Assembly (NCBI RefSeq): GCF_026341125.1
Contig: NZ_JAPEOR010000001.1
Span: 3,410,001-3,474,000, forward strand
Source: Streptomyces sp. NBC_01142
Lineage (GTDB): Bacteria; Actinomycetota; Actinomycetes; Streptomycetales; Streptomycetaceae
Direction of reading: 5' to 3'
Length of the DNA stretch: 64,000 nt
The stretch's first letter is position 1, and every line of letters starts with the position of its first letter. The position numbers were made by a program, and so were the translations under genes. Below are positions 9,222 through 24,698 of the stretch, piece after piece. The notes beneath the pieces are model-generated. The model did no database searches. It was not told where the DNA came from and was given only the letters and a program-made list of their open reading frames with translations.

Positions 9222-9411
9222 CCCTCCCGAAACCCCACCACCCTGTACGTTCGCGCCCGAGCTGGCTGCGCCATGCCTCCGTACCCCCAGACCGGGTACC
9301 AACGGCCCGGGGAAAACCGATCATCCCGCCAACTGCAGTGGGATGAAAAGGTAGAAGGCGGGCGTCAGGCTCGTCAGCCCGACTCCGCCGAACAAGATCC
9401 CGAACACAGAA

Positions 9412-9449
9412 AGAACTCCTAGCCCGGACGAGTCCGGGCTAGGAGTTCT
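9412..9449 (-). terminator. Terminator of tRNA-fMet
   Basis: Two perfect 18-bp arms (9412-9429 and 9432-9449) with a two-base centre. Read on the minus strand the stem is followed by TTTCTG. It sits 38 bases after the 3' end of the minus-strand tRNA and is the strongest rho-independent terminator in this part of the window. Confidence 0.85.
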
Positions 9450-9487
9450 GTAAAGCCAAGTGGGGTATTTGTGTGAACTACCCAGAG

Positions 9488-9561
9488 TAGCGGGGACAGG
9501 ATTTGAACCTGCGACCTCTGGGTTATGAGCCCAGCGAGCTACCGAGCTGCTCCACCCCGCG
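9488..9561 (-). tRNA. Initiator tRNA-Met (CAT)
   Basis: A 74-nt cloverleaf on the minus strand. The acceptor is CGCGGGG paired with CCCCGCT, leaving a C1-T72 mismatch as expected for an initiator. The D arm is GAGCAGCTCGGTAGCTC, the anticodon stem CTGGG/CCCAG carries loop CTCATAA (anticodon CAT), and the T arm contains GGTTCAAATCC. Three consecutive G-C pairs at the base of the anticodon stem, an initiator hallmark, are present. CCA is not encoded. Accessory DNA lies on its 3' side. Confidence 0.95.
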
Positions 9562-9825
9562 TCGGTAAGGCCACTCTACGGCACAAGGGCGCACGAGCCG
9601 AATCGGCCGTCCCGCCCGGCCGGGGACTCCTGCACCAGCAGTCGGCCGAAGTGATCCGTCGGGGTTCTGGCGGGCCCGAGGGTGGCGCGGCCGCGGGATG
9701 CCCTGGAGCTGGGGTGGAGCAGCCCGCGAAAAAGTTCTTCAGCTTCTCCCGCAGGCCCTGACATCATCAACGGGCCGGAATGGCATCCGATGAGTGCAAC
9801 AAGGCGCTCTCCCGACCAGGGAAGA

Positions 9826-10542: not shown

Positions 10543-10679
10543 TCCGGCGGGCTCAGCCGGCCGGAAGCGGAGCGCGGCGGGGCAAGGCGAACCTTCACGG
10601 CACTGCATGCCGTTGGGTTCGGCAGCAGGGAATCCTGTCATGCCAACACCAGGTGTGCTCACGCCGAGGCTTCGCGCGA

Positions 10680-10945
10680 CGGACACCGGCGGGACTGGGA
10701 ACGCGATCCGGCCGCAACACTGGCTTCGCAAAGCCGCCTTTGAGGTCCTGCTCGACGTCTACGCTGACGGTGCCGTCCGCTGCCGCCTGGACATGGGCGG
10801 TGAGGTCGAGGTTCACCACCTTGCGCTTCGCTTCCCACTGCGACGTCCATTCACCGGGTGAGGCCGAGGAACTCGGAATCCGGCGTGAGGGCGGAGGAGC
10901 CGTCGTAGGAGAACTCGACCTCGGGTCCGGCTGCACATAACCCCC
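10680..10945 (-). pseudogene. Decayed unidentified gene with one frameshift
   Basis: On the minus strand one frame reads EVEFSYDGSSALTPDSEFL and meets a stop at 10853-10851. Dropping a single T there lets it continue in the next frame as EWTSQWEAKRKVVNLDLTAHV and ADGTVSVDVEQDLKGGF. The two pieces together have clear protein character, while each frame alone turns to Arg/Pro-rich noise. I do not recognise the family. It lies between the secreted protein and the IS1182 insertion, and the original terminator hairpin now split by the IS may have belonged to it or to a lost neighbour. Confidence 0.3.
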
Positions 10946-11087
10946 GACCGACGCCCCACTCCCGGCCGACGCCCCGGGATCGATCCGCAGGGGGCGAGTG
11001 GTCCAGCGCGACAACACAGGTGCAGGCCTGGCACACGGCTCCGGCGCCGTCGCCTGACGTCCCGCAACGGGAACCGAGCGCCCCCGC

Positions 11088-11098
11088 CCGGAAACCGG
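11088..11098. repeat. Target-site copy flanking the IS1182 element
   Basis: The 11-bp sequence ccggaaaccgg occurs immediately left of the element (11088-11098) and again immediately right of it (14418-14428). Removing the element and one copy restores a long hairpin (11078-11098 joined to 14429-14437) with a gcgcccccgc-type stem and an aaa loop, that is, a terminator. Insertion into palindromes is known for IS1182-family elements. Confidence 0.75.
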
Positions 11099-11127
11099 AC
11101 GCTGTTGGTAAATCCGGGGCCTGCGTG

Positions 11128-11170
11128 ACGACGGCCTGTACGACCCCGTTGGGGTGGTACAGGCCGTCGT
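11128..11170. terminator. Hairpin inside the left end of the IS1182 element
   Basis: Arms at 11128-11141 and 11157-11170 (acgacggcctgtac and its complement) form a perfect 14-bp stem around a smaller ccccgttgggg hairpin. It lies between the element end and the transposase GTG, where it would stop transcription entering from outside. Confidence 0.6.
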
Positions 11171-11190
11171 CGTGTTTCTGGGGTGGGTTC

Positions 11191-12632
11191 GTGTCGTTGC
11201 ATGGGGTGGAGTTGGCGGAGATTCCGGAGGAGACCGCGCGGGTGGCGCGTGCGGTGTTCCCGAAGGGCTGTCTGGCGATGCGGATGCGGGATGTGCTCGG
11301 GCCAGTCTTCGCTGATGCCCAGTTCGAGGGGTTGTTCCCGGTGCGGGGGCGTCCGGCGGTGTCGCCGGCCCGGCTGGCGCTGGTGTCGGTGTTGCAGTTC
11401 GCGGAGGGGCTGACCGACCGGCAGGCCGCGCACGCGGTCCGCTCGCGTCTGGACTGGAAGTACGCCCTGTCTCTGGAGCTCGCCGATACCGGGTTCGACT
11501 TCTCCGTGCTCAGCGAGTTCCGGGCCCGGCTGGCCGAGTCGGATGCGGACCGGGTGGTGTTCGACGCGGTGCTTCGGGCCGCTGGGGAGGCCGGGCTGGT
11601 CAAGGCGGGCAAGCGGCAGCGTACGGACGCCACCCATGTGCTGGCCGTGACCAGGGACCTGAGCCGGCTGGAGTTCGTGGTCGAGACGCTGCGAGCGGTG
11701 CTGAACCAGGTTGCTGAGGTGGCCGGGGAATGGCTGGTGACGGTGGCGGCGCCGGAGTGGTTCGACCGCTACTCGGCCCGGCCGGAGGACAGCCGTTTCC
11801 CGTCCCGATGGGCGGCACGTGTCGAGCACGGAGACCAGTGCGGGGCCGATGGCATGGTGCTGCTTAAGGCTGTCTGGTCGGTGTCGGCGCCGCCCAGCCT
11901 GCGGGCCCTCCCGGCCGTGGAGTTGCTGCGCCAGACCTGGGTGCAGCAGTTTTACCAGGCCGACGACGCCGTGCGCTGGCGGGAGCCGAAGAACACCCCG
12001 CCGGGCCTGATCCGCTTACGCACCCCGCACGAACCCGGGGCAAGGACCGGATCCAAGCGGGATCTGGGCTGGTCCGGCTACAAGGTCCACCTCAGCGAGA
12101 CCTGCGAGCCCGACGCACCGCACCTGATCACCCACATCCACACCACCCCGGCACCGGTCAGTGACATCGCTGTCCTGGAGGACATCCACACCGCGCTGGC
12201 CGAGCGTGAGCTCTTGCCGGACGAGCACCTGGTGGACGCCGGATACGTGGACGCCGAGCAGATCCACCACGCTCGCCGCGACCACGGCATTGACCTCGTC
12301 GGCCCTGTCGGGAAGGTGACCAACCGGAAACAGGCGGCCGGGGACTTCTTCGACAACACTCGCTTCACCATCGACTGGGACCAGCACACGGTCACCTGTC
12401 CCGGAGGCAAACAGAGCACTGTCTGGCGAGCGACCACCAGCCACCGGGGCACCCCCGTGACCCGGGTCAAGTTCCCGGCCAGAGAGTGCGGCCCCTGCGA
12501 GCTGAGGACGTCGTGCACCGACTCGCCCAAGGGACGCGCACTCACCTTCCGCCCCCAGGCCGAGCACGAGATCCTCCAACAGGCCCGGATCGAACAGGAC
12601 ACCGCGCTATGGCGACGACGCTACGGGCACCG
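11191..12632 (+). pseudogene. IS1182 transposase, 5' part
   Basis: A GTG at 11191 (after a G-rich site) starts the transposase VSLHGVELAEIPEETARVA. The N-terminal domain shows the IS1182 pattern FEGLFPVRGRPAVSPARLAL and LSEFRARLAE. The catalytic region includes KRQRTDATHVLA with the first Asp, DEHLVDAGYVDA with the second, and the zinc-type cluster ECGPCELRTSC downstream. About 480 residues are intact up to RRRYGHR, where the IS3-like element begins; the frame then reads a few foreign codons to a stop at 12669. The missing end is found at 14174-14386. Confidence 0.85.
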
Positions 12633-12704
12633 AGGTGTGTCTGAGTCTTTGAGCCAAGGTCAGGGTTAAATACCCAACCAGGACGTGACGGATATTGAGG
12701 ATTC

Positions 12705-13763
12705 TCAGTTCTGTTTCCGACGGTAGGCGATGCGGTGTTCGCGTGCCTGCTGGAGACCGTGGGCGCGGGCCGTTCGGATGGCGTCGGCGCGTCCGGTGTG
12801 CTCGTCGTCGGGGGTGACGTAGCCGAGCCCGGCGTGCAGGCGCACGGTGTTGTACTCGGTGTGGACCGCGTCGAGTTCGGCCTCGAGTTCGAAGGGGTCG
12901 CGGATCTTGGTCAGGTGTGGCCACTCGCCCTTGACGTGGCTGAACAGTGATTCGATCCAGGCCTGGTCGTTGGGGGTGTGAGGGCGTCCGAAGTGCTGGC
13001 CGATCAGGCAGGCGGCCATGAAGGTGCGGGTATCCGCGGAGCGCATCTGGGGGCCGTTGTCCGAGACCGCCAGCAGGACGGGCTGTTCGTCGGGCGGTGG
13101 CCCGGGGGCGGTGAGTTCGGCACGCATCCGGCGCTCGGCGAGGTGCCCGAGGTCCTCGGAATGCAGCGCGGACAGGAACGCGGTCTCGACCTGGAGGGAG
13201 GACTCCTGGGCGGAGACCAACGTGGTGATCCACTTGCGGCTCACCAGGTCCATGATTGCGAGAGCGCACCTGCGTGCTGCCGTGAAGTGCGTGAAGTCGT
13301 AGATCCAGATTGATCTCGGGCGCCAGAGCGCCCAGTCGGGAAACGGTTTCTTCTCGCGGTGTTCGCGTACCGGGCCGCCGGGCAGGCGGATGCCCTGGTC
13401 GTCCAGGACCCGCAGCACGGTGGATTCCGAGACGTGGACCCAGCCCAGGCGGGAGCCGCGGTGGGCGAGTTTGCGGTGCGAGCGGTCCGTGCCGCCCCAC
13501 TCCTCGGCGAGTTTGACGATTGCCTCGCGCTCGAAGTCCAGCAGCGCGTGCACCGCAACGTTCGGGCCGGCCGGGCTGTCCTCGAGCCGTCCCGCCACGC
13601 GGCGCTGCTGCCAGCGCAGCACCCGCATATGGTCGACGCCCAGTGTGTCGGCGGCATGGCGCACCGACCAGCCGGCCCGCCCTGCATGGTCGACCAGCTC
13701 CAGAAGCCCGGCCTTGATCTCCGCGTGCACGCGTGGCGCGACGGGGCCGGCGCTCAGGCCCAT
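12705..13763 (-). CDS. IS3-family transposase OrfB (rve integrase core)
   Basis: A 352-residue DDE integrase-core protein starting MGLSAGPVAP. It has the three catalytic acids in context: WIYDFTHF (first Asp), LLAVSDNGPQM (second Asp) and QAWIESLFSHVKGEWP (Glu 35 residues on). A winged N-terminal HTH precedes the core (AADTLGVDHMRVLRWQQRR). The ATG overlaps the orfA stop by ten bases. Upstream of it GGGAAAAGC would allow a -1 frameshift joining OrfA to OrfB into the active fusion, as is usual in IS3 elements. The gene looks intact. Confidence 0.85.
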   Translation of the reverse strand: MGLSAGPVAPRVHAEIKAGLLELVDHAGRAGWSVRHAADTLGVDHMRVLRWQQRRVAGRLEDSPAGPNVAVHALLDFEREAIVKLAEEWGGTDRSHRKLAHRGSRLGWVHVSESTVLRVLDDQGIRLPGGPVREHREKKPFPDWALWRPRSIWIYDFTHFTAARRCALAIMDLVSRKWITTLVSAQESSLQVETAFLSALHSEDLGHLAERRMRAELTAPGPPPDEQPVLLAVSDNGPQMRSADTRTFMAACLIGQHFGRPHTPNDQAWIESLFSHVKGEWPHLTKIRDPFELEAELDAVHTEYNTVRLHAGLGYVTPDDEHTGRADAIRTARAHGLQQAREHRIAYRRKQN

Positions 13764-14083
13764 CGTGCTTTTCCCTGCTGCAGATGGAGCGCGACTGCCT
13801 GCTCCGTGATGGTGGCCCGCAGCCGTTCCACCTCCGCGCGGGCCTCGGCCAGCGCGGCTTGCTCGACGGTCATGCCGGGCCGGCCCGGCACCGCGGCGGC
13901 GAACCCGTCGAGCACGCTCTGCTTCGCACACCGCAGCACTGCGATCACGGTGGAGCGGTCCACGCCCCAGCGTTCCGCGGCCTCGCGCTGCGTGTGCTGA
14001 CCGGTGAGCACCGCCACGAACATCTCGTACTTCTCCGACGGGGCCAGCCGCTTACGCGGCTTCCGGGGAGTAACTCCTGCCAT
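13754..14083 (-). CDS. IS3-family transposase OrfA (DNA-binding subunit)
   Basis: A 109-residue protein, MAGVTPRKPRKRLAPSEKYEMF, with a helix-turn-helix at residues about 20-55 (GQHTQREAAERWGVDRSTVIAVL) and a C-terminal coiled-coil/leucine-zipper stretch (AALAEARAEVERLRATITEQ). This is the standard layout of IS3/IS911 OrfA, which binds the element ends. It ends within the slippery region shared with orfB. Confidence 0.85.
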   Translation of the reverse strand: MAGVTPRKPRKRLAPSEKYEMFVAVLTGQHTQREAAERWGVDRSTVIAVLRCAKQSVLDGFAAAVPGRPGMTVEQAALAEARAEVERLRATITEQAVALHLQQGKARWA

Positions 14084-14173
14084 GATCGAAAACCTTCCAG
14101 ATCAAGGCCCGAAGGCCAGAGACCTGGCTGGGTGTTTCCTCACGATCTTGGCTCATTCACTCAGACGCATACC

Positions 14174-14386
14174 GGGCACCGTGCTGGGGTCGAGGGCACC
14201 ATCTCCCAAGGCGTCCAGGCGTTCGGCCTGCGCAGATCCCGCTACCGCGGCCTCGCCAAAACCCGGCTGCAACACCACTTCACCGGAGCCGCCATCAACC
14301 TCGCCCGCCTCGACGCCTGGCTCACCGGCAGACCCCTCGCCCGCACCCGTATCTCACCCTTCGCAGCACTCCGCCCCGCTGGATGA
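14174..14386 (+). pseudogene. IS1182 transposase, 3' part
   Basis: Immediately after the nested IS3-like element the frame resumes as GHRAGVEGTISQGVQAFGLR, then RYRGLAKTRLQHHF and ARLDAWLTGRPLARTR, ending in a stop at 14384-14386. This is the conserved C-terminus of IS1182 transposases, including the catalytic Glu in GVEGT. It joins in frame with the 5' part when one copy of the 9-bp repeat is removed. Confidence 0.85.
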
Positions 14387-14401
14387 GATCCAGCGGGGCG
14401 G
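14371..14401. terminator. Terminator at the right end of the IS1182 element
   Basis: Perfect 14-bp arms (14371-14384 and 14388-14401) with loop gag; the transposase stop codon lies in the stem and loop. It would end the transposase transcript and insulate the element. Confidence 0.75.
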
Positions 14402-14664
14402 AATTAACCAACAGCGTCCGGAAACCGGCGGGGGCGCTTGCGGCTCGTGGAACCGGAAGCTGATCACCGTGCTGACCCTGGTGCGAGAGGCCGAGACCTC
14501 GCCGGGGCGCCTGTCACGCATCGTGTCCAGGACGGGACACTCCGCACGCGCAACGTCGCCGTGATGTCCGAATAGTGAATGACAGGCAGAATTGCTAGGG
14601 AACTCGTCTGCCGTCGTGCGGACGGACTCAGCCGCCGCGTGTCTCGGGTGGAAGGGGACATCTG

Positions 14665-16749
14665 GTGCCATCGGTTCGGCCGGGGGGCGAGAAGGCTTCT
14701 GGTCCGCTCTGGTCCGAGCCAGGGACGCTGCTGGAGCACGTGGCCGTGGCAGTGTTCGGCATGGACGACGATGACCGGATCTGCTACTGGGGGCCCGGGG
14801 CGCAGAGCCTCTTCGGATACGAATCCGCGGTGGTGCTGTCCCAGCCGGCCGCGGCCCTTTTCCCCGATCCGCCCCGGGGTGCCCCGGAGGCGGCCCCGTG
14901 GCTGGCGGAGCAAGGCCGGACCCTGGGGTACTGGCGCGGCCGGCTGCCGGCGCGGCATCAAGACGGCACGGTCTTCGAATGCGGTTTCCGGGTTTTTCCC
15001 GTTACCGGCGCCAGGGGCGGTTCCGTGGTCATGGGCCTGGCGAGCAGGGGCGACGAGCTCGACCGGGTGAAATCCAACCTTGCCTTCCTCGACGCCCTCT
15101 TCGAGACCTGCCCCATCGGCCTGGTCATGCTCGACGAGGACTTGCGGTACGTCCACCTCAACCAGGCGCTCGCCGACATGGACGGCCTCCCGATCGAGGA
15201 TCACATCGGGCGGCACATGGAAGAATTCATGATCACGTCCGATGGCGGCGAGTACCAGCGCATGCTGCGAGGTGTGGCGGAGGGGGGCCGGCCCGTTGTG
15301 AGCACGCTGGTGGGCCTGCGCACGCCCGGTCATCCGGATCGTGACCAGGTGCGGTCGGTGAGTTTCTTCCCGCTGAGTCAGGCGGGCGACACGCGCCCCG
15401 GGCTGGGCGGGCTGCTGGTGGACGTGACCGACCGGGAGCAGGCCATTGTGGAAGCAACGGCCGGCCGGCAGCGGCTGGCTCTGCTGCACCGGGCAGCGGC
15501 CCGGATCGGCACCACCTTGGATGTGAACGTCACGGCCCGGGAGCTGGTCGACACCGCGGTTCCGGAATTCTCCGACGCGTCCGTCGTGGAGATCGTGGAG
15601 TGGATGGACGAGCCCGAGGTGTTCAACCCGGAACTGCCGCTGGTCACCCGCCGGATCGCCTCCGGTACGACACTGCCCCCGCCCGCCTTCGAACTCGTCA
15701 GCGGACTGGAGAGCGTGACGTATCCACCAGGTTCCAGCATCCACCAGATGCTGCGAACGGGCCGCCCGGTCTCCGTCCCCGTGAACGAGGAGTTCGTGAC
15801 CCGGACAGTACTGCACCAGGCTCGCGCCCAGCTATTGGTCGAAAGCGGTCTGTCGTGCATTCTCATCGCTCCGCTCATCGCCCGGGGCACGGTCCAGGGA
15901 ATCACCATGTTCGGCCGCTCCGCCGCCCGCCCGGCCTTCACCGAGCAGGACCTCAGCCTCGCCAGTGAACTCGCCTCCCGTGCTGCTCTGTGTCTGGACA
16001 ACGCACGTCTCTACAGCCAGGTCCAGACCATTGCGCTCACCCTCCAACGCGCGCTGCTCCCCAGCGCCCTGGCGACCAGCCCCTACGTGGACATCGCCCA
16101 CCGTTACCTCCCCGGCAGCCACATCACCGAGGTCGGCGGCGACTGGTACGACGTGATCAACCTGCCCGGCGACCAGGTGGCGATCGTCGTCGGCGACGTG
16201 ATGGGACATGGTGTGCTGGCCGCCGCAGCCATGGGCAGGCTGCGCATCACCACCAAGGCACTGGCTCGCCACAACCGGGAACCCGACGACCTGCTCACGG
16301 AGCTCGACGCCTGTGCACAGGAAGCGGGCATCGAACTGGCAACCTGCCTCTACATCCTCTACGACCCCACGACAGGCCGCGCTCGCATTGCCAACGCCGG
16401 TCACCCTCCACCCCTCGTACGCCATCCGGACGGCACGGTCGAAACCATCGGCGACGTACTGGGAGTCCCTCTCGGGGTCGGCGGTTTCCCGTTCCGTACG
16501 ACCGAGATCGACCTCCGCGAGGGCGCCACCCTTGCCATGTACACCGACGGTCTCATCGAAGCGCGCGGCCAGGACATCGAAGAAGGCATGGACGAGCTCC
16601 GCGCCCAACTGCACGGGACTTCAGGTCCGTTGGAAGCGACAGCGGACCGCATTCTTTCGAGCCTGTTGCCTGACCCGCCGACCGACGACACGGTGCTCGT
16701 CCTCGCCCGCGTCCGCCGCGCGCCTCCGCCTGGCCGACGCCAGGGGTGA
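14665..16749 (+). CDS. PAS-PAS-GAF-SpoIIE serine phosphatase
   Basis: A 694-residue cytoplasmic sensor phosphatase. The order is a PAS domain (about 25-125, FGMDDDDRICYWGPGAQSLFGY), a second PAS (about 140-255, LDALFETCPIGLVMLDEDLRY), a GAF domain (about 280-450) and a C-terminal PP2C/SpoIIE domain (about 460-680). The phosphatase motifs are visible: EVGGDWYDVI, VVGDVMGHGVLAAAAMGRLR, NAGHPPPLVR, AMYTDGLIEAR and TDDTVLVLAR. The metal-binding aspartates are all kept. Such proteins dephosphorylate anti-sigma-factor antagonists and are abundant in Streptomyces. There is no anti-sigma kinase domain and no partner gene beside it. The GTG at 14665 follows GGAAGGGG. Confidence 0.9.
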   Translation: MPSVRPGGEKASGPLWSEPGTLLEHVAVAVFGMDDDDRICYWGPGAQSLFGYESAVVLSQPAAALFPDPPRGAPEAAPWLAEQGRTLGYWRGRLPARHQDGTVFECGFRVFPVTGARGGSVVMGLASRGDELDRVKSNLAFLDALFETCPIGLVMLDEDLRYVHLNQALADMDGLPIEDHIGRHMEEFMITSDGGEYQRMLRGVAEGGRPVVSTLVGLRTPGHPDRDQVRSVSFFPLSQAGDTRPGLGGLLVDVTDREQAIVEATAGRQRLALLHRAAARIGTTLDVNVTARELVDTAVPEFSDASVVEIVEWMDEPEVFNPELPLVTRRIASGTTLPPPAFELVSGLESVTYPPGSSIHQMLRTGRPVSVPVNEEFVTRTVLHQARAQLLVESGLSCILIAPLIARGTVQGITMFGRSAARPAFTEQDLSLASELASRAALCLDNARLYSQVQTIALTLQRALLPSALATSPYVDIAHRYLPGSHITEVGGDWYDVINLPGDQVAIVVGDVMGHGVLAAAAMGRLRITTKALARHNREPDDLLTELDACAQEAGIELATCLYILYDPTTGRARIANAGHPPPLVRHPDGTVETIGDVLGVPLGVGGFPFRTTEIDLREGATLAMYTDGLIEARGQDIEEGMDELRAQLHGTSGPLEATADRILSSLLPDPPTDDTVLVLARVRRAPPPGRRQG

Positions 16750-16817: not shown

Positions 16818-17759
16818 TCACACCGGAACGGGAAGGGCGGAGGCCGTACGGAGCGGCGTGTTCGGGAAGCTGAGAGTCCGGTAGACCGCCACATTGCCCG
16901 CCAGCTCCGAGCATGCCCGAGCCGCCGCTGTGGCGCGGTGCGTGTACGCGGGGTCCGCGGTGTCCAGTAGTACGCCCAGGGTCGTGCCGCTGTGCCCGAC
17001 GGCCACTCCCAGTCCGCCGACCTCACGACAGATCTCACGCATGGGCTCCAAGGACCACTTGTGCCGGAGGGACTGGTTCATCAACGCACTCCGGGTAGCG
17101 ATGCTGCCCACCTCTGCAAGGTCACTCCTGCATACGGCGACGGTGAGTCGATCCAGCAGACGTGCGTACTCGTGTCGGTCGGCTGTTGTGAACGGTTTGG
17201 GGATGCGGTTGAAGTCGACCGTGTCGACGGCTCCGCCTTCGTCGATCCCCACAACGGCCATGGACGGCAGGGATCCGAGGACCGCGCGTAGGCGCACGCT
17301 GCGGTGGTGGAAGGCGACGATCGCCGGGTAAAGCACCCCGTCCGTGGGCTCGATGCGCGCCAGGAACCGCTCGATGCAGGAGGCCGGCATCTTGATGTTC
17401 AGTGCTTGGCCCACCGCGCGTGCGGTTGCGACCAGATCGGCCGAGGAACTGGCCAGTCCCTTGCCCTCCGGGATCACGCTGGTGACGGTCAGGACCCCTC
17501 CAGCCGGCTGCAGGGCCTCCTCGGTGATCATGCGTGCCAGTTGAAGGGCCTTCTTCTTGTGGGATGGCTGGACCACCAGGTCACTGGAGTCTGGATCCTG
17601 CCGGAAGGTAGCCATCGTCCAACGGGCAACGGGCAGCGTCACCAGGAAGTCCCCGTCGTTCTCCGGGAGTACGCCCTGGAGCAATTCGCCGAAGGTCCCA
17701 AAGGCGGTGCCCACTCCGGTCGGCCCCCGTGGCGGCGCGAACTGTTGGGACAGCTTCAC
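16818..17759 (-). CDS. GHMP-family kinase, L-threonine kinase (PduX)-like
   Basis: A 313-residue small-molecule kinase. The opening FGTFGELLQGVLPENDGDFLVT corresponds to the 'GTCGELxQG' start of L-threonine kinases, and PEGKGLASSSADLVATARAV is the ATP-binding GHMP motif 2. A C-terminal motif (GLGVAVGHSGTTLGVLLD) matches GHMP motif 3. I place the start at GTG 17759, six bases after GAGAGG, instead of upstream in-frame ATGs lying in a tandem repeat. It is divergent from the PLP/DUF364/transport operon, and a Zur/Fur-like box lies 125 bp upstream. Family knowledge suggests O-phospho-L-threonine as product, which could feed the neighbouring PLP enzyme. The substrate is inferred. Confidence 0.78.
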   Translation of the reverse strand: MKLSQQFAPPRGPTGVGTAFGTFGELLQGVLPENDGDFLVTLPVARWTMATFRQDPDSSDLVVQPSHKKKALQLARMITEEALQPAGGVLTVTSVIPEGKGLASSSADLVATARAVGQALNIKMPASCIERFLARIEPTDGVLYPAIVAFHHRSVRLRAVLGSLPSMAVVGIDEGGAVDTVDFNRIPKPFTTADRHEYARLLDRLTVAVCRSDLAEVGSIATRSALMNQSLRHKWSLEPMREICREVGGLGVAVGHSGTTLGVLLDTADPAYTHRATAAARACSELAGNVAVYRTLSFPNTPLRTASALPVPV

Positions 17760-17884
17760 AGAAGTCCTCTCCTCGTCTTGCCTGCATGCCTGCATGCCTG
17801 CGTGTTGGCTCGCCTCACACAGAACCGGGCAGGGCGCCGCCTGTCCTCGCAGACCAGGGGGTGGCGGAGAACACTAGATGAAAG

Positions 17885-17899
17885 TGATAATCGTTTTAA
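17885..17899. promoter_or_regulatory. Zur/Fur-like operator A, kinase side
   Basis: The sequence tgataatcgttttaa matches the actinobacterial Zur box as I remember it (tgaaaatcattttca) at 12 of 15 positions and sits in a strikingly AT-rich island. It lies 125 bp before the kinase start. Fur-family regulators with bound metal would repress here. Fur cannot be excluded from sequence alone. Confidence 0.55.
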
Positions 17900-18020
17900 C
17901 GTACGGGGATGCCTGAAGGCAAGTCGTCGACAGGGTGCAGCGGCGTCCGGGGGGACTGTCGCCCCCACTTGGCGCCCCGGCGGCGCCGCGCGGCGGTGAT
18001 CCAGTGCTGGCAATCGGTGT

Positions 18021-18035
18021 TGACAATCATTTTCA
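18021..18035. promoter_or_regulatory. Zur/Fur-like operator B overlapping a TTGACA promoter
   Basis: The sequence tgacaatcattttca matches the recalled Zur box consensus at 14 of 15 positions. It overlaps a consensus -35 hexamer, ttgaca (18020-18025), and an AT-rich stretch ttaatgt follows, so a bound repressor would cover the promoter. It faces the PLP/DUF364/MFS/ABC operon, with about 370 bases of leader before the PLP gene. A half-site-like gatcgttttca recurs near 18,289. Confidence 0.62.
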
Positions 18036-18279
18036 TTTAATGTGATGCTCTGCGACGTCGTCCCGGGCTCCTGTGCTCGTCGTGACCAACGAAGCGGCGC
18101 GTGGGGAGCGATGGACGGAGCCGAGAACGCACTGCGCCGCGCCTTCCGGGCGGCAGGCAGGCCGATCCAGGCCGGCCCCCGGTCAGCAGGAAGAAGTCGG
18201 CAGGAGGAAGTCAGCAGGGGCGAGGCGTCAGAGGGGCCACCGGCGAGCAGAACCGCACGCGTTGCCGGCCGGTGGCGGG

Positions 18280-18390
18280 GTGTATCTGATCGTTTTCAAC
18301 ACCACAGAATTGCGGGACATCATCAAGTACGCCATTGAGACAACGTTCAGGCGTTTCCTGTTCAAGCTGCGCCGGCGTATAGCCGCTTAA
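18280..18390 (+). CDS. Possible 36-residue peptide in the leader of the metallophore operon
   Basis: A GTG at 18280 after GGTGGCGG opens a short frame: VYLIVFNTTELRDII, then KYAIETTFRRFLFKLRRRIAA, stop at 18388-18390. It ends 14 bases before the PLP enzyme start and uses more AT than its surroundings. The hydrophobic start and basic amphipathic end look peptide-like. The frame is open further upstream, but that part is low-complexity. I do not recognise it; it may be a real small protein, a leader peptide or chance. Confidence 0.3.
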   Translation: MYLIVFNTTELRDIIKYAIETTFRRFLFKLRRRIAA

Positions 18391-18404
18391 CAGGAAGACA
18401 GGTC

Positions 18405-19445
18405 ATGCACGTACACATTGCAGAAGCAGTCAAGAAACCCGATCTCATATCCCTTCAGCCGGACATGGTCTGTCTTCGGTTCGAGACGATGAAGATCTAT
18501 TCGGCCCTGGGAGCGGTCCGCCACCTCCTGGAGTCAGGTGTCGTCAAACCCGGTGACACGCTCATCGACAGCTCGAGTGGAATCTACGCACAGGCGCTGG
18601 CACTTGCCTGTCACCGCTATGGAATGAAGTGCCACATCGTGGGCTCCACGACGGTCGACCGGACGCTGCGCGTGCAGCTGGAAATACTCGGCGCCACACT
18701 GGAACAGGTCAAGCCGTCGAAGAACCTGCGCCTCGACCAGGAGCTGCGGGTGCGGCGGATCGCCGAGATCCTCGAGGCGAACCCGTCCTACCACTGGATG
18801 CGGCAGTACCACGACAGCATCCACTACTACGGCTACCGCGACGTGGCCGGAGCGATCGATCGGGAGATTCCCTCCGGACCGCTGGCGCTGGTGGGCGGAG
18901 TGGGCTCGGGTGCGTCGACCGGGGCCATCGCCACCTGTCTGCGGGACGCGGGCAGGGATGTGTCCCTCGTCGGCGTACAGCCCTTCGGCAGCGTCACCTT
19001 CGGCTCGGAGCACGTGTCGGACCCGGACATGATCATTGCCGGGATAGGCAGCGCCATCGAATTCAAGAACGTCCGGCGTGAGCTGTACGACAGGCTGCAC
19101 TGGGTGAACTTCGACTGCGCCATGTCCGGCGCGGTCAATCTCCTCCGGAACAGCGGAATCTTCGCCGGCCTTTCGACCGGAGCGGCCTATCTGGCCACCC
19201 TCTGGGAACGCCGAAGGGACGACAACTCCCGCACCTACGTCTTCATCGCGGCCGACACGGGCCATCGCTATGTCGAAAGCGCCTATGCCAGGCACGCGGA
19301 AGCCCACGACATCGACGCACTGAAGCCGCACGAAATCACCTCTCTGGATGAGCTGAGACACCCCTGGTCGACGACTTCCTGGTCCGGCCTCTGCGCAATG
19401 GGTGAGATCAGTGCTGCCGCTCCGGGAACTCCGCTCCAGGGATGA
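18405..19445 (+). CDS. PLP-dependent cysteine-synthase-like enzyme (SbnA-related)
   Basis: A 346-residue fold-type II PLP enzyme. The cofactor lysine lies in CLRFETMKIYSALGAVRHLL near residue 30, the substrate loop is DSSSGIYAQALALACHRYG where cysteine synthases have 'SSGNTGIALA', and the phosphate-binding loop is GGVGSGASTGAIATCLR. Relatives catalyse beta-replacement on activated serine or threonine, for example SbnA making a 2,3-diaminopropionate precursor. Here the divergent threonine-type kinase suggests O-phosphothreonine as substrate and a beta-substituted aminobutyrate as product; this is inference. The ATG at 18405 follows AGGAAGACAGG. It is the first large gene of the operon. Confidence 0.78.
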   Translation: MHVHIAEAVKKPDLISLQPDMVCLRFETMKIYSALGAVRHLLESGVVKPGDTLIDSSSGIYAQALALACHRYGMKCHIVGSTTVDRTLRVQLEILGATLEQVKPSKNLRLDQELRVRRIAEILEANPSYHWMRQYHDSIHYYGYRDVAGAIDREIPSGPLALVGGVGSGASTGAIATCLRDAGRDVSLVGVQPFGSVTFGSEHVSDPDMIIAGIGSAIEFKNVRRELYDRLHWVNFDCAMSGAVNLLRNSGIFAGLSTGAAYLATLWERRRDDNSRTYVFIAADTGHRYVESAYARHAEAHDIDALKPHEITSLDELRHPWSTTSWSGLCAMGEISAAAPGTPLQG

Positions 19446-19463
19446 GAGGTTGACCGATCTCCC

Positions 19464-20345
19464 ATGACTGCACCGACAACGCCGACGAGAGAACAGAAGA
19501 TGTCACATCCCAAGCCGCAGACAGTCGCCGAACTGACCGACGCCGTACTGTCCGGCGCCTACGGCCCCGATCCGAAGGACCTGGCCGTCACGAGCGCGTT
19601 CTGGCTCTACAACACCACCCGGCTGACCGGGAGCCAGGTCACCTACCACAACCACTACCTCCTGCTCCGTGTCGGGCAGTCCTTCGGCGCCTGTTCCTTC
19701 GAGGCCGGTGAACTCGCCCCCGACTTCTGCGAGAACGCCTCCGGCTACACCCTGGACAAACTGCTGCGCCATGAGTCGGTCCCGGTCCGTATCGCAGCCC
19801 TCGACGCCTACCTCGCACAGGTGCAGCCGCACCGGGACGCGACGGACGCCGAGCCCGTCACACTGCCCGTCGGAACCCCGGAGGTCCGTGCACGCGCCCG
19901 CGACGCCGCCATCGCCGGCCTGCTCGACATGGAGCAGGGAGCGAAGGTGGCACTGATCGGCGTGGTCAACCCTCTGGTCGCAGCGATACGCGACCGGGGC
20001 GGGGTCTGCCTGCCCTGTGATCTGAACCTGCGCACCACCCAGTGGGGAGAACAGGTCACCGATGACATGACCGAAGTCCTCAAGGAAGCCGATGCCGTGG
20101 TGGCCACCGGCATGACGCTCAGCAACGGCACCTTCGACCTCATCCTCGAGCACTGCCGGGAACACGACGTGCCGCTGGTCGTCTACGCACAGTCCGGCAG
20201 CGCCGTCGCCCGCGCGTTCCTGCCCGCCGGGGTCACCGCACTGTCCGCCGAGCCGTTCCCGTTCTCGCAATTCAGCGCTGATCCGACATGCCTGTACCGC
20301 TACCGAGCCGACAAGCCGGTGCTCGCCAACCAGGAGGGAGCGTGA
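19464..20345 (+). CDS. DUF364/DUF4213 Rossmann-like protein (putative heavy-metal chelation family)
   Basis: A 293-residue soluble protein. The N-terminal part (TSAFWLYNTTRLTGSQVTYHNHYLLLRVG) precedes a Rossmann-like half with GAKVALIGVVNPLVAAIR, ADAVVATGMTLSNGTFDLIL and VPLVVYAQSGSAV, which is the pattern of the DUF364 family. Pfam labels that family a putative heavy-metal chelation domain; its biochemistry is largely unknown. The start is ATG 19464 or, in frame, ATG 19500 after AGAGAACAGAAG. It lies between the PLP enzyme and an MFS exporter, overlapping the latter by four bases, so it probably helps to assemble or handle the metal ligand. Confidence 0.7.
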   Translation: MTAPTTPTREQKMSHPKPQTVAELTDAVLSGAYGPDPKDLAVTSAFWLYNTTRLTGSQVTYHNHYLLLRVGQSFGACSFEAGELAPDFCENASGYTLDKLLRHESVPVRIAALDAYLAQVQPHRDATDAEPVTLPVGTPEVRARARDAAIAGLLDMEQGAKVALIGVVNPLVAAIRDRGGVCLPCDLNLRTTQWGEQVTDDMTEVLKEADAVVATGMTLSNGTFDLILEHCREHDVPLVVYAQSGSAVARAFLPAGVTALSAEPFPFSQFSADPTCLYRYRADKPVLANQEGA

Positions 20346-21625
20346 GCACCGACGCCAAGGAAGCCGCGGCGGATCGCCGGACGCCGGAGACGGCCGAGCC
20401 GCTGCCGGGCGACCTGCGGATGGCCCGTACCCTGTGGCCGGTCCTGGCGGCCTCCGCGGTCGGTCTGCTGCCGTTCACCATTTTCAGCACCTACCTGGTG
20501 CCCATAGCCGATGAGGCCGGGACCAGTGTGGCCGCAATGGGCGGACTCCGTGGACTGGGCGGCCTGGCAGCCCTGTTGGTGGGCACGGCGCTCGCTCCGC
20601 TGATCGACCGCGTGCCCAAGGAGCGGGCCGCCGCGGGCGGACTCATCGCTCTCGGCGCCTCGGCGGCCCTGGGCGCCGGCGGGGACTTCATCATGCTCGC
20701 CGTGTTCTGCCTGCTGGTCGGCGCCAGTACATCCGTACTGAACCCGGCCCTCACCGCGGCGGCCGCCGACCGCTTCGGCTCCGGGAAGGCAGCGGGCCGC
20801 GCGGCGACCCTGGTGACGGCGACGCAGTCGATGACCGCGATGCTCGCGGCACCTGTGGTGGCCCTGCCCGCGCTGTTGTGGGGCTGGCAGGGAGACCTCG
20901 TCGCTGTAACCGCGGCCTCGCTCCTGCTGGCTGTGGTCTTCCTGGCGCGGGGCAGGAGCAAGGGTGACGAGGAGACCGGCAGCGGCCCGCGCCTGAGCTA
21001 CCTCGCGTCGTTCAAGGCCCTGGGAGCGATTCGCGGGGTGGCGCCGCTGCTCCTCATCGCCCTGCTGCGCACGGCGGTGTTCATGGGGTACCTCTCCTAC
21101 CTGGCAGCCTTCTACGACGATCGCTTCGAGCTCGATCCCGGACTCTTCGCGCTCGTCTGGACGCTGAGCGGCGCGTCGTTCTTCGTGAGCAACCTCCTCA
21201 CGGGGCGGATCACGAACTCCGACGAGCCCCGGATCGGTACTGAGCGCATGCTGGCCATCGGCCTGGTCGCAGCACTGGCTTCCGTCGTGGGGTTCTACTT
21301 CACGCACTGGCTTCCGCTTGCCCTCGCGCTGACGTCGCTTCATGCGGCCAGCCACGCTGTCGTTGCCGCGTGTGTGGTCAGCCTCCTCGTCCGGCGTTGC
21401 GGAACGCTGCGCGGCTCGGCCTTGAGCATCAATGCCGCCGGAATGAGCCTCGGAGTGTTCGTGGGCGCGGCCCTGGGCGGCGCCGGCCTCGGACTGGCCG
21501 GTTACCCGGGCACGGCCCTGGTCTTCGGTGCTCTCACCGTCGCAGCGCTGGTGGCCGCCGTCCTGGTGCTCCGGGCGGGCCCGGCGAGCGAGGAGGAGGC
21601 GGGCGACGTGCCTGCTTCCGCGTAG
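20342..21625 (+). CDS. MFS transporter, likely exporter of the cluster product
   Basis: A 427-residue membrane protein with about 12 predicted hydrophobic segments. A soluble N-terminal 35 residues is followed by LWPVLAASAVGLLPFTIFSTYLV, and the loop between segments 2 and 3 holds LIDRVPKERAAAGGL, the degenerate 'GxLaDrxGrr' motif. The GTG start overlaps the DUF364 stop (GTGA), so translation is coupled. Small metallophores are commonly exported by MFS proteins encoded with the biosynthetic enzymes, which fits this position; the substrate is inferred. Confidence 0.8.
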   Translation: MSTDAKEAAADRRTPETAEPLPGDLRMARTLWPVLAASAVGLLPFTIFSTYLVPIADEAGTSVAAMGGLRGLGGLAALLVGTALAPLIDRVPKERAAAGGLIALGASAALGAGGDFIMLAVFCLLVGASTSVLNPALTAAAADRFGSGKAAGRAATLVTATQSMTAMLAAPVVALPALLWGWQGDLVAVTAASLLLAVVFLARGRSKGDEETGSGPRLSYLASFKALGAIRGVAPLLLIALLRTAVFMGYLSYLAAFYDDRFELDPGLFALVWTLSGASFFVSNLLTGRITNSDEPRIGTERMLAIGLVAALASVVGFYFTHWLPLALALTSLHAASHAVVAACVVSLLVRRCGTLRGSALSINAAGMSLGVFVGAALGGAGLGLAGYPGTALVFGALTVAALVAAVLVLRAGPASEEEAGDVPASA

Positions 21626-21741
21626 CCGACGCGCCGAGCCTGCGTCCGCGCAGCAGACGCGGACGTGCCGTCCGCCCGGGCCGCGGGCGGACGCCGCGCC
21701 TTGATCCGAACGCTCCACTTCGACCCGGAAGGCCGACCTCT

Positions 21742-22896
21742 ATGTCCCCGCCCGCGACCTCTGCTCCGTCAGCGAGCACCGGCGCCGATACGTCGGTCGA
21801 CGTGTCACCCGCCGACGTATCACCCATCGAACCGGCAGAGGTCGTGAAGGACCGGCTTGCCTCCCGCAAGGGCTTGGCCGTGACATGCGTCGTTCTGCTC
21901 GTCGTCCTCCTTGCCTCCGCTGTCGTGGCCATCGGTCTGGGATCCGCCGTGATCTCACCGGCTGACACCGCCCGTTACCTGTGGGCAGCTCTCAGCGGCG
22001 GGCGCATCGAAGCGGAAGAGGCGACGATGTACCAGATCATCTGGGAGATCCGTACACCGCGGGTGGTGCTGGCGGCGCTCGTTGGGGCCGGGCTGAGTGC
22101 GATCGGTGTCGCCATCCAGGCAATGGTGCGCAACGCGCTCGCAGACCCCTTCGTCCTGGGTGTCTCTTCGGGCGCGTCGGTCGGTGCCGTCGGCGTCACG
22201 GTCACGGGAGGACTGGCGGCGCTGGGCATCTACGCGGTGTCCGCCGGCGCCTTCATCGGCGCACTGGTGGCGTCGTTCCTGGTGTACGTCGCCTCCTCCA
22301 GCCGGGGTGCGCTCTCTCCGCTGCGTCTCGTCCTGACGGGCGTGGCCATGTCCCTCGGGTTCCAGGCGGTGATGAGCGTGATCATCTACTTCGCGCCGGA
22401 CAGCGAGGCGACCAGCATGGTCCTGTACTGGACGATGGGCAGTTTCGGCGCTGCCACGTGGGGCGCGCTTCCCGTTGTGTCCGTGGCCGTGCTGCTCGGT
22501 GTGGCAGTGCTGTACCGGTACGGCAGGGCGCTGGACGTCATGGCGCTCGGTGACGAGACGGCCGCGAGCCTGGGCATCAGTCCCGACCGGCATCGCAAGG
22601 GCCTTCTCGTGCTCGTCTCGCTCGTCACCGGGGTCATGGTCGCCGTGAGCGGTGCCATCAGCTTCGTCGGACTGGTCATGCCGCACGTGGTGCGCATGGT
22701 GGCCGGTGCCACCCACGCCCGGGTACTGGCCGTCACTCCGCTGGTCGGGGCGATCTTCATGGTGTGGGTCGATCTGGTGTCCCGGACTCTGGTGGCACCG
22801 CGCGAGCTGCCCCTCGGCGTCATCACGGCACTCGTGGGCGTCCCTGTGTTCATCACCATGATGCGCCGCAAGGCCTACATGTTCGGAGGCCGCTGA
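21742..22896 (+). CDS. FecCD-type ABC transporter permease
   Basis: A 384-residue inner-membrane permease of the iron-siderophore/vitamin B12 class. After a polar N-terminal 45 residues it shows the family markers IIWEIRTPRVVLAALVGAGL, ALADPFVLGVSSGAS, MALGDETAASLGI (the ATPase-coupling helix), GAISFVGLVMPHVVRM and LGVITALVGVPVFITMM. Only one permease gene is present, so a homodimer is expected. The ATG at 21742 is chosen because the upstream part of the frame reads as the previous gene's shadow. It precedes the ATPase gene by one base. Confidence 0.92.
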   Translation: MSPPATSAPSASTGADTSVDVSPADVSPIEPAEVVKDRLASRKGLAVTCVVLLVVLLASAVVAIGLGSAVISPADTARYLWAALSGGRIEAEEATMYQIIWEIRTPRVVLAALVGAGLSAIGVAIQAMVRNALADPFVLGVSSGASVGAVGVTVTGGLAALGIYAVSAGAFIGALVASFLVYVASSSRGALSPLRLVLTGVAMSLGFQAVMSVIIYFAPDSEATSMVLYWTMGSFGAATWGALPVVSVAVLLGVAVLYRYGRALDVMALGDETAASLGISPDRHRKGLLVLVSLVTGVMVAVSGAISFVGLVMPHVVRMVAGATHARVLAVTPLVGAIFMVWVDLVSRTLVAPRELPLGVITALVGVPVFITMMRRKAYMFGGR

Positions 22897-22897
22897 G

Positions 22898-23671
22898 ATG
22901 GATCTGAGGCTCGAGGGACTCTCGGTGGTGACCGATGGCAAGAGTCTGGTGCGTGACCTGTCCCTGGCAGTGGACAGCGGCCGGATCGTGGGCCTGGTCG
23001 GCCCGAACGGCAGTGGGAAATCCACCGCCCTCAGGTGTGTGTACCGCGCGCTGCGCCCCAGTTCCGGCACCGTCCGGGTGGGCGACGAGGACCTCTCCCG
23101 ACTGACGATGCGTAGAAGTGCGCAAGTCATCGCGGCCATGACCCAGGACGGTGCCGTCGACCTCGACTTCACGGTCGAAGAGGTCATCGCGCTGGGACGC
23201 ACGCCCCACCTGCAAGGCAACCAGGTGCTCAGCCGGCGGGAGCGGGACCTGTGTGAGCGGGTCATGGGCCGGCTCGACATCCGGCACCTCGCCCGGCGTG
23301 GCGCTCTCACGTTGTCGGGCGGGGAGCGCCAGCGCGTTCTGCTGGCCCGGGCCCTCGTCCAGGAACCGAAGATCCTGGTGCTGGACGAGCCGACCAACCA
23401 CCTCGACGTGCGCCACCAGATCGAGTTGCTCTCGCTCCTGCGGGGCTCGGGGCTCACCGTCCTCGTCGTACTGCACGATCTCAATCTCGCCGCCGCTGCC
23501 TGTGACCGGCTCGGCGTGCTCTCCGGAGGGCGCCTGGTGGCCACCGGCACGCCCGAGGACGTTCTGACCACCCAACTGGTCGACGAGGTATTCGGAGTCA
23601 AGGCCAGCATCATTTCCCACCCGCTGACCGGTGACCCGCAGTTGTTGTATTCGCTGAACCCCTCCCTTTGA
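22898..23671 (+). CDS. ABC transporter ATP-binding protein (FecE/BtuD type)
   Basis: A 257-residue ATPase. Walker A is GLVGPNGSGKSTALRC (about 32-47), the Q-loop AAMTQDG, the signature TLSGGERQRVLLARAL (about 139-154), Walker B ILVLDEPTNHLD and the switch His in VVLHDLNLAA. All catalytic residues are present. It pairs with the permease one base upstream and the lipoprotein 16 bases downstream to form a complete importer. Confidence 0.95.
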   Translation: MDLRLEGLSVVTDGKSLVRDLSLAVDSGRIVGLVGPNGSGKSTALRCVYRALRPSSGTVRVGDEDLSRLTMRRSAQVIAAMTQDGAVDLDFTVEEVIALGRTPHLQGNQVLSRRERDLCERVMGRLDIRHLARRGALTLSGGERQRVLLARALVQEPKILVLDEPTNHLDVRHQIELLSLLRGSGLTVLVVLHDLNLAAAACDRLGVLSGGRLVATGTPEDVLTTQLVDEVFGVKASIISHPLTGDPQLLYSLNPSL

Positions 23672-23687
23672 AAGGCGTCATCACGTC

Positions 23688-24698
23688 ATGTCCATAAATC
23701 GATTTCCCGGCTCGGTCCGGCAGCGCACGGCCCTCGGATCCGCACTCGCGGCCACGCTGCTGATCAGCGGCTGCGGCGCCGACGTCGAACCGGACGCCAC
23801 GGCGTCTGAGAAGGTCACTGTCAAGAGGTGCGGTGAGCCGGTCGAATACACGACACCGAAGCGAGCAGTGGCGTATGAAGGCGGCAGCGCGGACAAGCTC
23901 TTCAGCCTGGGCCTGACCGAGCACGTACACGGATATGTGATGCCCCCTGCGAACCCGCCGGTGAGTGAGTCCCCGTGGGCGTCCGAGTACGCCAAGGTGA
24001 AGATGCTCAGCGAAGACCTCCTCAACAAGGAACTCGTCGTGGACGCCAAGTCCGACTTCGTTGTAGCGGGCTGGAATTCGGGCTTCAGTGATCAGCGGGG
24101 CATCACCCCGGAGATCCTGGACAAGCTCGGCATCCAGAGCTTCATGCACACCGAAAGCTGCTTCAACTACCCCAAGTTCCCTGAGAAGGCAGCCCCGTTC
24201 GAGGCCCTGTACACCGACCTTGAGCGGCTCGGCAGGATATTCAAGGCCGAGGACAAGGCGGACGAAGTCGTCGGTGGCCTGAAGAAGCGCGTCGAGGCCG
24301 TCACGGCAAAGACCCCCAAGCGTGGTCCGGTGCCGGTCTTCCTCTATGACTCGGGCACGGACCAGCCGTTCACGGCGGGCAGCCAGGTTCCGCCCAACGA
24401 CATCATCAGGACCGCCGGAGGCAGGAACATCTTCGACGGCCTCGACCAGCGGTGGACTCAGGTGAACTGGGAGGCCGTCACCAAGGCCGAGCCGGAGGTC
24501 GTCATCATCCTCGACTACGGCGACCAGCCTGCCAAGAAGAAGATCGACTTCCTCAGGAAGTCACCGCACACGCGGGAACTGCCCGCCGTCAAGAAGAACA
24601 ATTTCTTCATTCTCGACTACAACGAGGGAATCAGCGGGCCCCGCAACATCGACGGCCTCGAGAAGTTCGCGAAGTACCTGCGTACCCTCGAACGCTGA
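23688..24698 (+). CDS. Metal-chelate-binding lipoprotein of the ABC importer
   Basis: A 336-residue substrate-binding protein with a lipoprotein signal (ALGSALAATLLISGC, lipobox ISGC with the cysteine near residue 28). The mature part has the two-lobed 'helical backbone metal receptor' layout of BtuF/FepB proteins: RAVAYEGGSADKLFSLGLTEHV at the start, DAKSDFVVAGW, and APFEALYTDLERLGRIF, which begins the long backbone helix. Cysteines at TVKRCGEP and TESCFNYP might form a disulfide. It is the last gene of the operon, followed by a strong hairpin. The ligand is probably the metal-loaded cluster product. Confidence 0.85.
   Translation: MSINRFPGSVRQRTALGSALAATLLISGCGADVEPDATASEKVTVKRCGEPVEYTTPKRAVAYEGGSADKLFSLGLTEHVHGYVMPPANPPVSESPWASEYAKVKMLSEDLLNKELVVDAKSDFVVAGWNSGFSDQRGITPEILDKLGIQSFMHTESCFNYPKFPEKAAPFEALYTDLERLGRIFKAEDKADEVVGGLKKRVEAVTAKTPKRGPVPVFLYDSGTDQPFTAGSQVPPNDIIRTAGGRNIFDGLDQRWTQVNWEAVTKAEPEVVIILDYGDQPAKKKIDFLRKSPHTRELPAVKKNNFFILDYNEGISGPRNIDGLEKFAKYLRTLER

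Follow-up and report, generated by a model that had tools for sequence, protein, structure and literature searches.

Gene content and organization of the locus

The locus lies in a 64,000-nucleotide window of the Streptomyces sp. NBC_01142 genome and comprises seven genes, i.e. a GHMP-type kinase gene transcribed divergently from an operon encoding, in this order, a PLP enzyme, a DUF364 protein, an MFS transporter, a FecCD permease, an ATPase and a lipoprotein (Table 1). The order, strands and families given for these genes by a first-pass annotation were borne out by the open reading frames (ORFs) and by Pfam, with E-values of 1.1e-9 (GHMP_kinases_N), 2.6e-32 (PALP), 2.6e-11 (DUF364) and 3.9e-28 (MFS_1), and of 3.6e-87 (FecCD), 4.8e-32 (ABC_tran) and 4.8e-27 (Peripla_BP_2) for the importer. 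The lengths of close homologues suggest starts at 17759 for the kinase and 19500 for the DUF364 protein, shorter than the respective ORFs, and a GTG overlapping the DUF364 stop is a possible start of the MFS gene.

Table 1. Features of the locus, in coordinates of the window
Feature	Position	Strand	Remarks
GHMP-superfamily kinase	16818..17759	-	ORF extends to 17795; proposed free amino-acid (serine) kinase
Weak second Zur-like site	17885..17899	.	TGATAATCGTTTTAA; 2 mismatches
Zur box and overlapping hexamer	18020..18035	+	TGACAATCATTTTCA at 18021-18035, TTGACA at 18020-18025; read as operator over a -35 element
N6AMT1/HemK-like methyltransferase remnant (family F6)	18256..18390	+	Decayed C-terminal part; profile match 18256-18360, stop at 18390
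PLP-dependent beta-substituting enzyme	18405..19445	+	SbnA/cysteine-synthase fold; PF00291
DUF364 protein	19500..20345	+	ORF from 19464
MFS transporter	20342..21625	+	PF07690; proposed ligand exporter
FecCD-type permease	21742..22896	+	PF01032; start inferred, ORF open from 21370
Importer ABC ATPase	22898..23671	+	PF00005
Importer substrate-binding lipoprotein	23688..24698	+	PF01497; lipobox LISGC seen in sequence

Between the Zur box and the PLP gene, the decayed remnant ties the locus, which has layout A, to a sister layout, F6 being the methyltransferase-like gene of layouts B and C. When all six frames of the window were searched with a profile built from 14 F6 proteins, chosen out of 28 genes called as F6, the remnant scored 19.2 bits (E 3.4e-5), and of 300 two-base-block shuffles of this stretch none scored above 6.1 bits. 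No F6 match was obtained elsewhere in the genome, in a search run without a positive control, and no remnant was detected in eight of the nine other layout-A loci (L013 lying outside this set; best score 0.3 bits; L002 represented by 132 bases only). An assignment of F6 as a staphylopine-type CntL was dropped, its best solved relatives being PH1948 and N6AMT1/HemK methyltransferases, with weak scores (E ~3e-4).

Conservation of the gene neighbourhood

Conservation of synteny across Actinobacteria had been proposed as a check of the first-pass annotation, and in the 80 loci and 197 genomes surveyed the enzymes stay with the exporter and importer genes. Of the 80 actinobacterial loci, 79 carry a PLP gene no more than 5 kb from DUF364, and the same distance included the substrate-binding protein in 57 loci, FecCD in 55 and a GHMP kinase in 55. 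Strong DUF364 matches (E<1e-9) numbered 34, in 33 of the 197 sampled genomes of the order, all of them (34/34, read by eye) with a PLP gene within 2 kb. As 25 loci combine PLP and DUF364 genes without a nearby GHMP kinase match (among them L002, whose contig begins at the PLP gene), the pathway does not depend on the kinase. Conversely, 22 relatives of the PLP enzyme at 59-65% identity (counted by eye) had no adjoining DUF364, and several of the 12 that were inspected lay in clusters with ATP-grasp ligases. No earlier description of the locus was found in open-access full texts.

A predicted Zur operator upstream of the operon

The first-pass annotation had placed two Zur/Fur-like boxes between the divergent arms. 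One stands as an exact match to the motif tGaNNatSatNNtCa published for S. coelicolor Zur (PMC5472717), a motif that occurs exactly at one other place in the 10.1 Mb genome; the other, with two mismatches, is only weak. Of 310 control stretches of equal length from the window, 23 contained an equally good site, so that this second box alone is not beyond chance and was dropped as strong evidence; a similar sequence lies at the same place in L003, L013 and L029.

The first box recurs in relatives: eight of nine layout-A intergenic regions hold a TTGACA-associated Zur box (seven exact, one with one mismatch). Over the 80 loci (1.56 Mb), the exact motif was matched 32 times against none in a reversed-sequence control, and 81 times against one when one mismatch was allowed. 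Counted by eye, an exact site occurred in 26 of the 80 loci and a site with at most one mismatch in 54, a few of these sites lying inside coding sequence or distant from the operon; the 26 loci lacking even a one-mismatch site count against the Zur reading. Within the genome itself, weaker copies (one or two mismatches) precede a ZnuA gene and an L32 gene, which are known kinds of Zur target (PMC5472717). Since the motif with up to two mismatches occurred at 15 sites against 14 in the control, these copies are credited by their genes and not by their number.

No DmdR/IdeR-like box (up to three mismatches) was found in any of the 80 loci, on which ground iron control was discarded. Given the exact Zur box, the 32 matches against none and the absence of such iron boxes, zinc is more likely than iron as the metal, and Zur more likely than Fur as the regulator. 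The Zur/Fur-like control first proposed is thereby narrowed to a predicted Zur-type operator, conserved in relatives. Among 20 context loci, one DmdR/IdeR-like site (up to three mismatches) was seen (L102:852), at a locus without DUF364.

Predicted enzymes of the proposed pathway

The PLP enzyme had been regarded as metallophore-type, and its profile search agrees, with SbnA (5d87, 1.3e-47) as best match and no SbnB at the locus; its chemistry is predicted. Against the SbnA family model TIGR03945 it scored 130.7 bits, under the cut-off of 349.95. In an alignment of a chosen subset of 20 proteins (including P0121-set homologues and proteins of the loci; the tree comprised 62 proteins), Lys30 is invariant, and R115, Q134 and Y135 align with SbnA R132, Q151 and Y152. 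R132, Y152 and S185 are key SbnA residues for O-phosphoserine (PMC12414870); the enzyme keeps two of the three, R115 and Y135 being invariant in 20/20 aligned sequences, and differs at position 185, which aligns with G167.

The kinase carries the PF00288/PF08544 domains, and its homologues are named kinase, L-threonine kinase or Threonine kinase in B12 biosynthesis. The top Foldseek hits of its model (pLDDT 85.8) were mevalonate kinase (6mdf, 1.9e-13) and homoserine kinase (4p52, 4.8e-13). With mevalonate kinase scoring equally well, the fold gives no specific pointer to an amino-acid kinase. The kinase alignment comprised a chosen subset of 24 kinases.

The DUF364 protein scored 43.8 bits against PF04016 (cut-off 23) and has a two-domain fold, enolase-N-like plus Rossmann-like. 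A crystal structure of DUF364 has been available since 2010, and the fold is common to the structures 3l5o and 3npg. In our reading of the alignment (a chosen subset of 22 proteins), strand 2 is followed by an acidic residue that is Asp in this protein and Glu in 3npg.

Proposed pathway and alternative explanations

A small zinc-binding molecule is probably synthesised, exported and taken up again by the products of the cluster, through a route using DUF364. The production, export and re-import of a non-NRPS metal ligand, as first proposed, gains from the conserved synteny, the Zur-type operator and the SbnA-like enzyme; from the computed gene content, conservation, motif, fold and key residues, we infer the in vivo regulation, metal, substrates, product, enzyme activities and transport direction as follows. 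Under zinc shortage, Zur would leave the box over the TTGACA element and the operon would be transcribed. The GHMP kinase would convert free L-serine to O-phospho-L-serine, a compound made by SbnI in a known precedent (PMC12414870). The PLP enzyme would eliminate the phosphate and add an amine nucleophile, which might be aspartate, glutamate or a diamino acid. One such addition, or several in succession, would yield an N-(2-amino-2-carboxyethyl) amino acid, i.e. an aminopolycarboxylate; AMA synthase offers a one-enzyme precedent in adding O-phosphoserine successively to aspartate (PMC8319579). DUF364, in place of the SbnB of Dap pathways, may then modify or join the PLP product by a further reaction in its two-domain cleft. 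The resulting aminopolycarboxylate-type zincophore would be exported by the MFS transporter and its zinc complex re-imported by the lipoprotein, FecCD permease and ATPase. We put the probability that the locus is a Zur-controlled, non-NRPS, non-NIS zincophore system with this pathway at about two in three.

We consider it unlikely that the locus belongs to the EDDS/EDHA-type (aes) aminopolycarboxylate clusters, or is their direct homologue, with a product class already known. The structure of EDDS seems to need decarboxylase and fumarase-superfamily steps, and Pfam detected neither domain in the seven proteins. In favour of such an identity, EDDS is a Zur-controlled zincophore of Amycolatopsis made by neither NRPS nor NIS enzymes (PMC4993170, PMC6103462), Amycolatopsis carries relatives of the locus, and aspartate has been described as a precursor of EDDS (PMC9252823).

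A diaminopropionate-type iron siderophore under Fur-like control would fit with FecCD importers, which often serve iron, and the box at 18021 is similar to the Fur-type boxes known from other bacteria. SbnA itself serves the iron siderophore staphyloferrin B (PMC12414870); nevertheless, the motif agrees with the Zur consensus of Streptomyces and the 80 loci hold no DmdR/IdeR-like box, which makes iron quite improbable. A role in the uptake and salvage of corrinoids or similar cofactors, combining a PduX-like threonine kinase with a BtuCDF-like importer, would fit with the B12-related names of some kinase homologues and the scores of the importer subunits with BtuC/BtuF and F420-0 transporter models. 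These scores are nonetheless under the curated cut-offs (for the F420-0 models TIGR03868/03869/03873, 155, 262 and 271 bits against 392, 437 and 372), and the importer was not assigned to F420 or cobalamin transport; with no cobalamin-synthesis domain found by Pfam in the seven proteins, a Zur box and an SbnA-like enzyme, such a role appears very improbable.

Beyond the locus itself, a wider reading, which we put forward tentatively and at somewhat less than even odds, is that DUF364 and an O-phosphoserine-using PLP enzyme form a two-enzyme core shared throughout a large and so far unrecognised family of actinobacterial metallophores, DUF364 being a new metallophore-building enzyme that replaces SbnB or opine dehydrogenase. 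Around this constant core the other parts would differ: for tailoring, a GHMP kinase, an N6AMT1-like methyltransferase, a PhyH or TauD oxygenase or an ATP-grasp ligase, and for transport, a FecCD or an Opp importer. If so, DUF364 would perhaps act by dinucleotide- or adenosyl-dependent condensation, and the DUF364 genes that adjoin metal transporters in archaea and anaerobes might also serve to make ligands. In this short pathway, where DUF364 is accompanied by a PLP enzyme whose chemistry can be assigned, by a predicted zinc operator and by genes for export and import, there is a concrete place to learn the role of the family, and both reaction and product could be tested directly in a soil bacterium. 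Zinc chelators of the aminopolycarboxylate class also attract interest for their biodegradability (PMC9252823) and as inhibitors of metallo-beta-lactamases (PMC8319579).

Comparison with known metallophore systems

The absence of NRPS, NIS synthetase and SbnB genes from the window, as first noted, was upheld by profile searches of the whole genome, whose matches all lie outside it: 27 for the NRPS condensation domain, five for IucA/IucC and five for the SbnB family (two over the cut-off). A staphylopine-type opine dehydrogenase gave no match in the genome, with a search that gave none in control genomes either.

SbnI of staphyloferrin B is of ParB-like type. Both the SbnI-SbnA-SbnB route and the present locus pair a serine kinase (here proposed) with a PLP enzyme of SbnA type to make a metal ligand (here inferred); in contrast, the locus has a GHMP-type kinase, a Zur box and DUF364, and its window holds no SbnB or NIS synthetase. 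The fungal aspergillomarasmine A synthase is a PLP enzyme, likened here by chemistry. Starting from O-phosphoserine and aspartate, it can by itself build a zinc chelator of the aminopolycarboxylate class (PMC8319579). [S,S]-EDDS/EDHA (aes) are, like the proposed ligand, non-NRPS, non-NIS aminopolycarboxylates, EDDS being Zur-controlled in an actinomycete (PMC4993170), whereas Pfam showed no lyase or decarboxylase domain at the present locus. DUF364 genes adjoin metal ABC transporters (PMC2954201), and the available excerpts of PMC4046660 and PMC2954201 give the family no reaction and no tie to a PLP enzyme; unlike the 3l5o and 3npg proteins, the one described here is tied to a defined enzyme partner, the PLP beta-substituting enzyme. 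Finally, opine zincophores (staphylopine, pseudopaline) resemble the proposed system in being small zinc ligands with dedicated export and import, and their actinobacterial clusters encode FecCD importers (PMC7438024).

Gene content and order of the locus

The gene listing and Pfam matches bore out the order and strands proposed in the first-pass annotation, i.e. a GHMP kinase gene on the reverse strand and, on the forward strand, genes for a PLP enzyme, a DUF364 protein, an MFS protein, a FecCD protein, an ATPase and a lipoprotein (the substrate-binding protein, SBP). Adjacent genes are tightly packed or overlapping: the DUF364 stop is overlapped by the MFS start codon, and only a single base lies between the end of the FecCD gene and the beginning of the ATPase gene. 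The closest relatives of the locus are from Streptomyces. Its DUF364 gene was the single PF04016 match (E ≤ 0.001) in the genome of the strain (10.1 Mb in 15 contigs, window included). Beside the cluster, at 12607-14083 of the window, ORFs read from the sequence resemble an integrase-type transposase and a helix-turn-helix partner.

Conservation of DUF364 with the PLP enzyme

A pattern scan for the DUF364 protein, with one genome per species, yielded 250 confirmed relatives. The 80 best were retained; among these, Streptomyces are in the majority, together with Amycolatopsis, Prauserella, Kribbella, Actinopolymorpha, Actinophytocola, Thermocrispum and Kitasatospora. The conserved synteny that the first-pass annotation had proposed to look for was found: within 5 kb of DUF364, these 80 loci carried a PLP gene in 79 cases, an SBP gene in 57, FecCD and GHMP kinase genes in 55 each, and an MFS gene close to that of the window in 34. 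The available sequence of the sole locus devoid of a PLP match (L037) stops within or just past the GHMP gene.

In an even sample of the order (197 genomes), DUF364 was present in 73 genomes (76 matches) and the PLP enzyme, at E ≤ 1e-30, in 62. Assessed by eye, all 34 DUF364 matches at E < 1e-9 (33 genomes) lay within 2 kb of a PLP gene, as did 1 of the 42 weaker matches with the PLP threshold of E ≤ 1e-30. Three further weak loci (L112, L114 and L115) were inspected, in which a PLP relative (29-31 %) adjoins DUF364 (40-43 %). From the proximity at strong matches and these three loci, a PALP-type enzyme is near DUF364 at every locus inspected in these genomes, L037 excepted, which takes in 4 of the 42 weaker matches.

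In these three loci, DUF364 is of a second subfamily (40-43 % identity), and the PALP enzyme next to it is divergent. Clustering indicated ATP-grasp, MFS and Opp-type SBP families common to all three; in L112, Pfam bore out the ATP-grasp, MFS and PALP genes, and a Zur-like site with one mismatch lies 89 bases upstream of the ligase gene. No Zur-like site was found in L114 and L115.

Since members of the PLP family are also present at loci devoid of DUF364, e.g. in L101 and L102 with a GHMP kinase, an ATP-grasp ligase, an MFS protein, a methyltransferase and a FecCD importer, this enzyme is a shared module, and what marks the locus family is DUF364. Four loci that lack DUF364 (L098, L101, L102 and L107) combine genes for a GHMP kinase, a PLP enzyme, an MFS protein and a methyltransferase, and some of them also encode an ATP-grasp L-amino-acid ligase, a ferric-reductase-like protein and a FecCD importer (Pfam in L101 only); these clusters are possibly another metallophore family. 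In two other loci, the PLP relative shows about 46 % identity; its neighbours in L110 are ATP-grasp, glutathione-synthetase-like, AMP-binding and thioesterase genes, and clustering placed the same families in L111.

Layouts of the locus family and a methyltransferase remnant

Layouts of the DUF364 loci
Layout	Loci	Gene arrangement
A	window + 8 loci, plus L002 (contig begins at PLP gene)	divergent kinase; PLP-DUF364-MFS-FecCD-ATPase-SBP
B	46	DUF364-GHMP-PLP; importer upstream or downstream
C	24	PLP upstream of DUF364, MFS usually downstream; no kinase match; PhyH oxygenase in some; FecCD or Opp-type importers near many

In a tree of 62 PLP proteins, layout A formed one clade (98/94), nested in a clade with layout C (100/97). 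Two strains carry two such loci each (pairs listed: L011/L024 and L027/L032), i.e. Streptomyces sp. CC228A, both of layout C, and S. aurantiacus JA 4570, one of layout C and one of layout B.

A methyltransferase-like gene (family F6), whose nearest, weak matches are PH1948 and the N6AMT1/HemK methyltransferases, was called in 15 of the 46 layout B loci and 13 of the 24 layout C loci, counts that are lower bounds because the gene caller missed genes. Searching all six frames of the window, we detected a decayed C-terminal piece of F6 at 18256..18390, between the Zur box and the PLP gene (19.2 bits, E 3.4e-5; top score among 300 shuffles, 6.1 bits), whose frame stops 14 bases upstream of the PLP start. 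A search of the strain's genome, run without a positive control, retrieved no intact F6. We read the remnant as a putative lost tailoring methylation, which would leave a three-enzyme pathway.

Zur box and a possible zinc regulon

Two Zur/Fur-like boxes had been claimed between the divergent arms. The one nearer the PLP gene (18021-18035) matches exactly the S. coelicolor Zur motif tGaNNatSatNNtCa (PMC5472717); the other (17885-17899) is weak. Across the 80 loci (1,556,879 bases), there were 32 exact occurrences of the motif, and 81 when up to one mismatch was allowed; the reversed sequences gave 0 and 1, respectively. Of the nine layout A intergenic regions, seven carry an exact site, whereas that of L026 deviates at one position and that of L013 at two; in eight of the nine (the seven exact ones and L026) the preceding base completes TTGACA, the simplest reading being a putative repressor site over a -35 element. 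A scan of the 80 loci for a DmdR/IdeR-like box (≤ 3 mismatches) retrieved none.

The strain's genome has one other exact motif, overlapping the start of a gene that we take, from its sequence, to encode ribosomal protein L9. With up to two mismatches, 15 sites were retrieved versus 14 in the control, but they include a pair upstream of a ZnuA gene and one site upstream of an L32 gene, consistent with a working Zur regulon. A possible second zinc-responsive locus was noticed in the same genome (L117, C1:1796001-1816000, at about 8532-15881), where an SbnB/ornithine-cyclodeaminase-like gene and a TauD-like oxygenase gene diverge from an Opp-type importer; the region between the arms holds a Zur-like site (two mismatches).

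Likely product and comparison with known systems

The best profile match of the PLP enzyme was the staphyloferrin B protein SbnA (5d87, 1.3e-47), followed by 9k2p (a PLP protein of unstated function) and CmnB, a capreomycin enzyme; the score is under the SbnA family cut-off. Among the SbnA residues key for O-phosphoserine, i.e. R132, Y152 and S185 (PMC12414870), the first two correspond in the alignment to R115 and Y135, which do not vary among the 20 aligned sequences (lowest identity 27 %), and S185 corresponds to G167. The kinase belongs to the GHMP superfamily, and its homologues are named L-threonine kinase in some source databases; its fold matches mevalonate and homoserine kinases alike. 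SbnI offers a precedent for a dedicated kinase whose O-phosphoserine feeds a PLP enzyme of this type (PMC12414870), and the zinc chelator aspergillomarasmine A is made by one synthase from O-phosphoserine and aspartate (PMC8319579). From the SbnA-like residues and these two precedents, we infer that the product would be an aminopolycarboxylate ligand. Elsewhere in the genome, two genes score above the SbnB family cut-off (C3:393284 and C1:749266); both lie within 5 kb of a gene resembling an SbnA-type enzyme, as judged by eye from the first part of its translation.

Among the papers retrieved by searches of an open-access library, none connected DUF364 with such a locus in its title or abstract. 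EDDS is described as under Zur control and neither NRPS- nor NIS-made (PMC4993170), and the EDHA operon as comprising four genes, AesA-D (PMC10702961); the chief risk to novelty is that the EDDS/EDHA genes may belong to the same set as this locus family.
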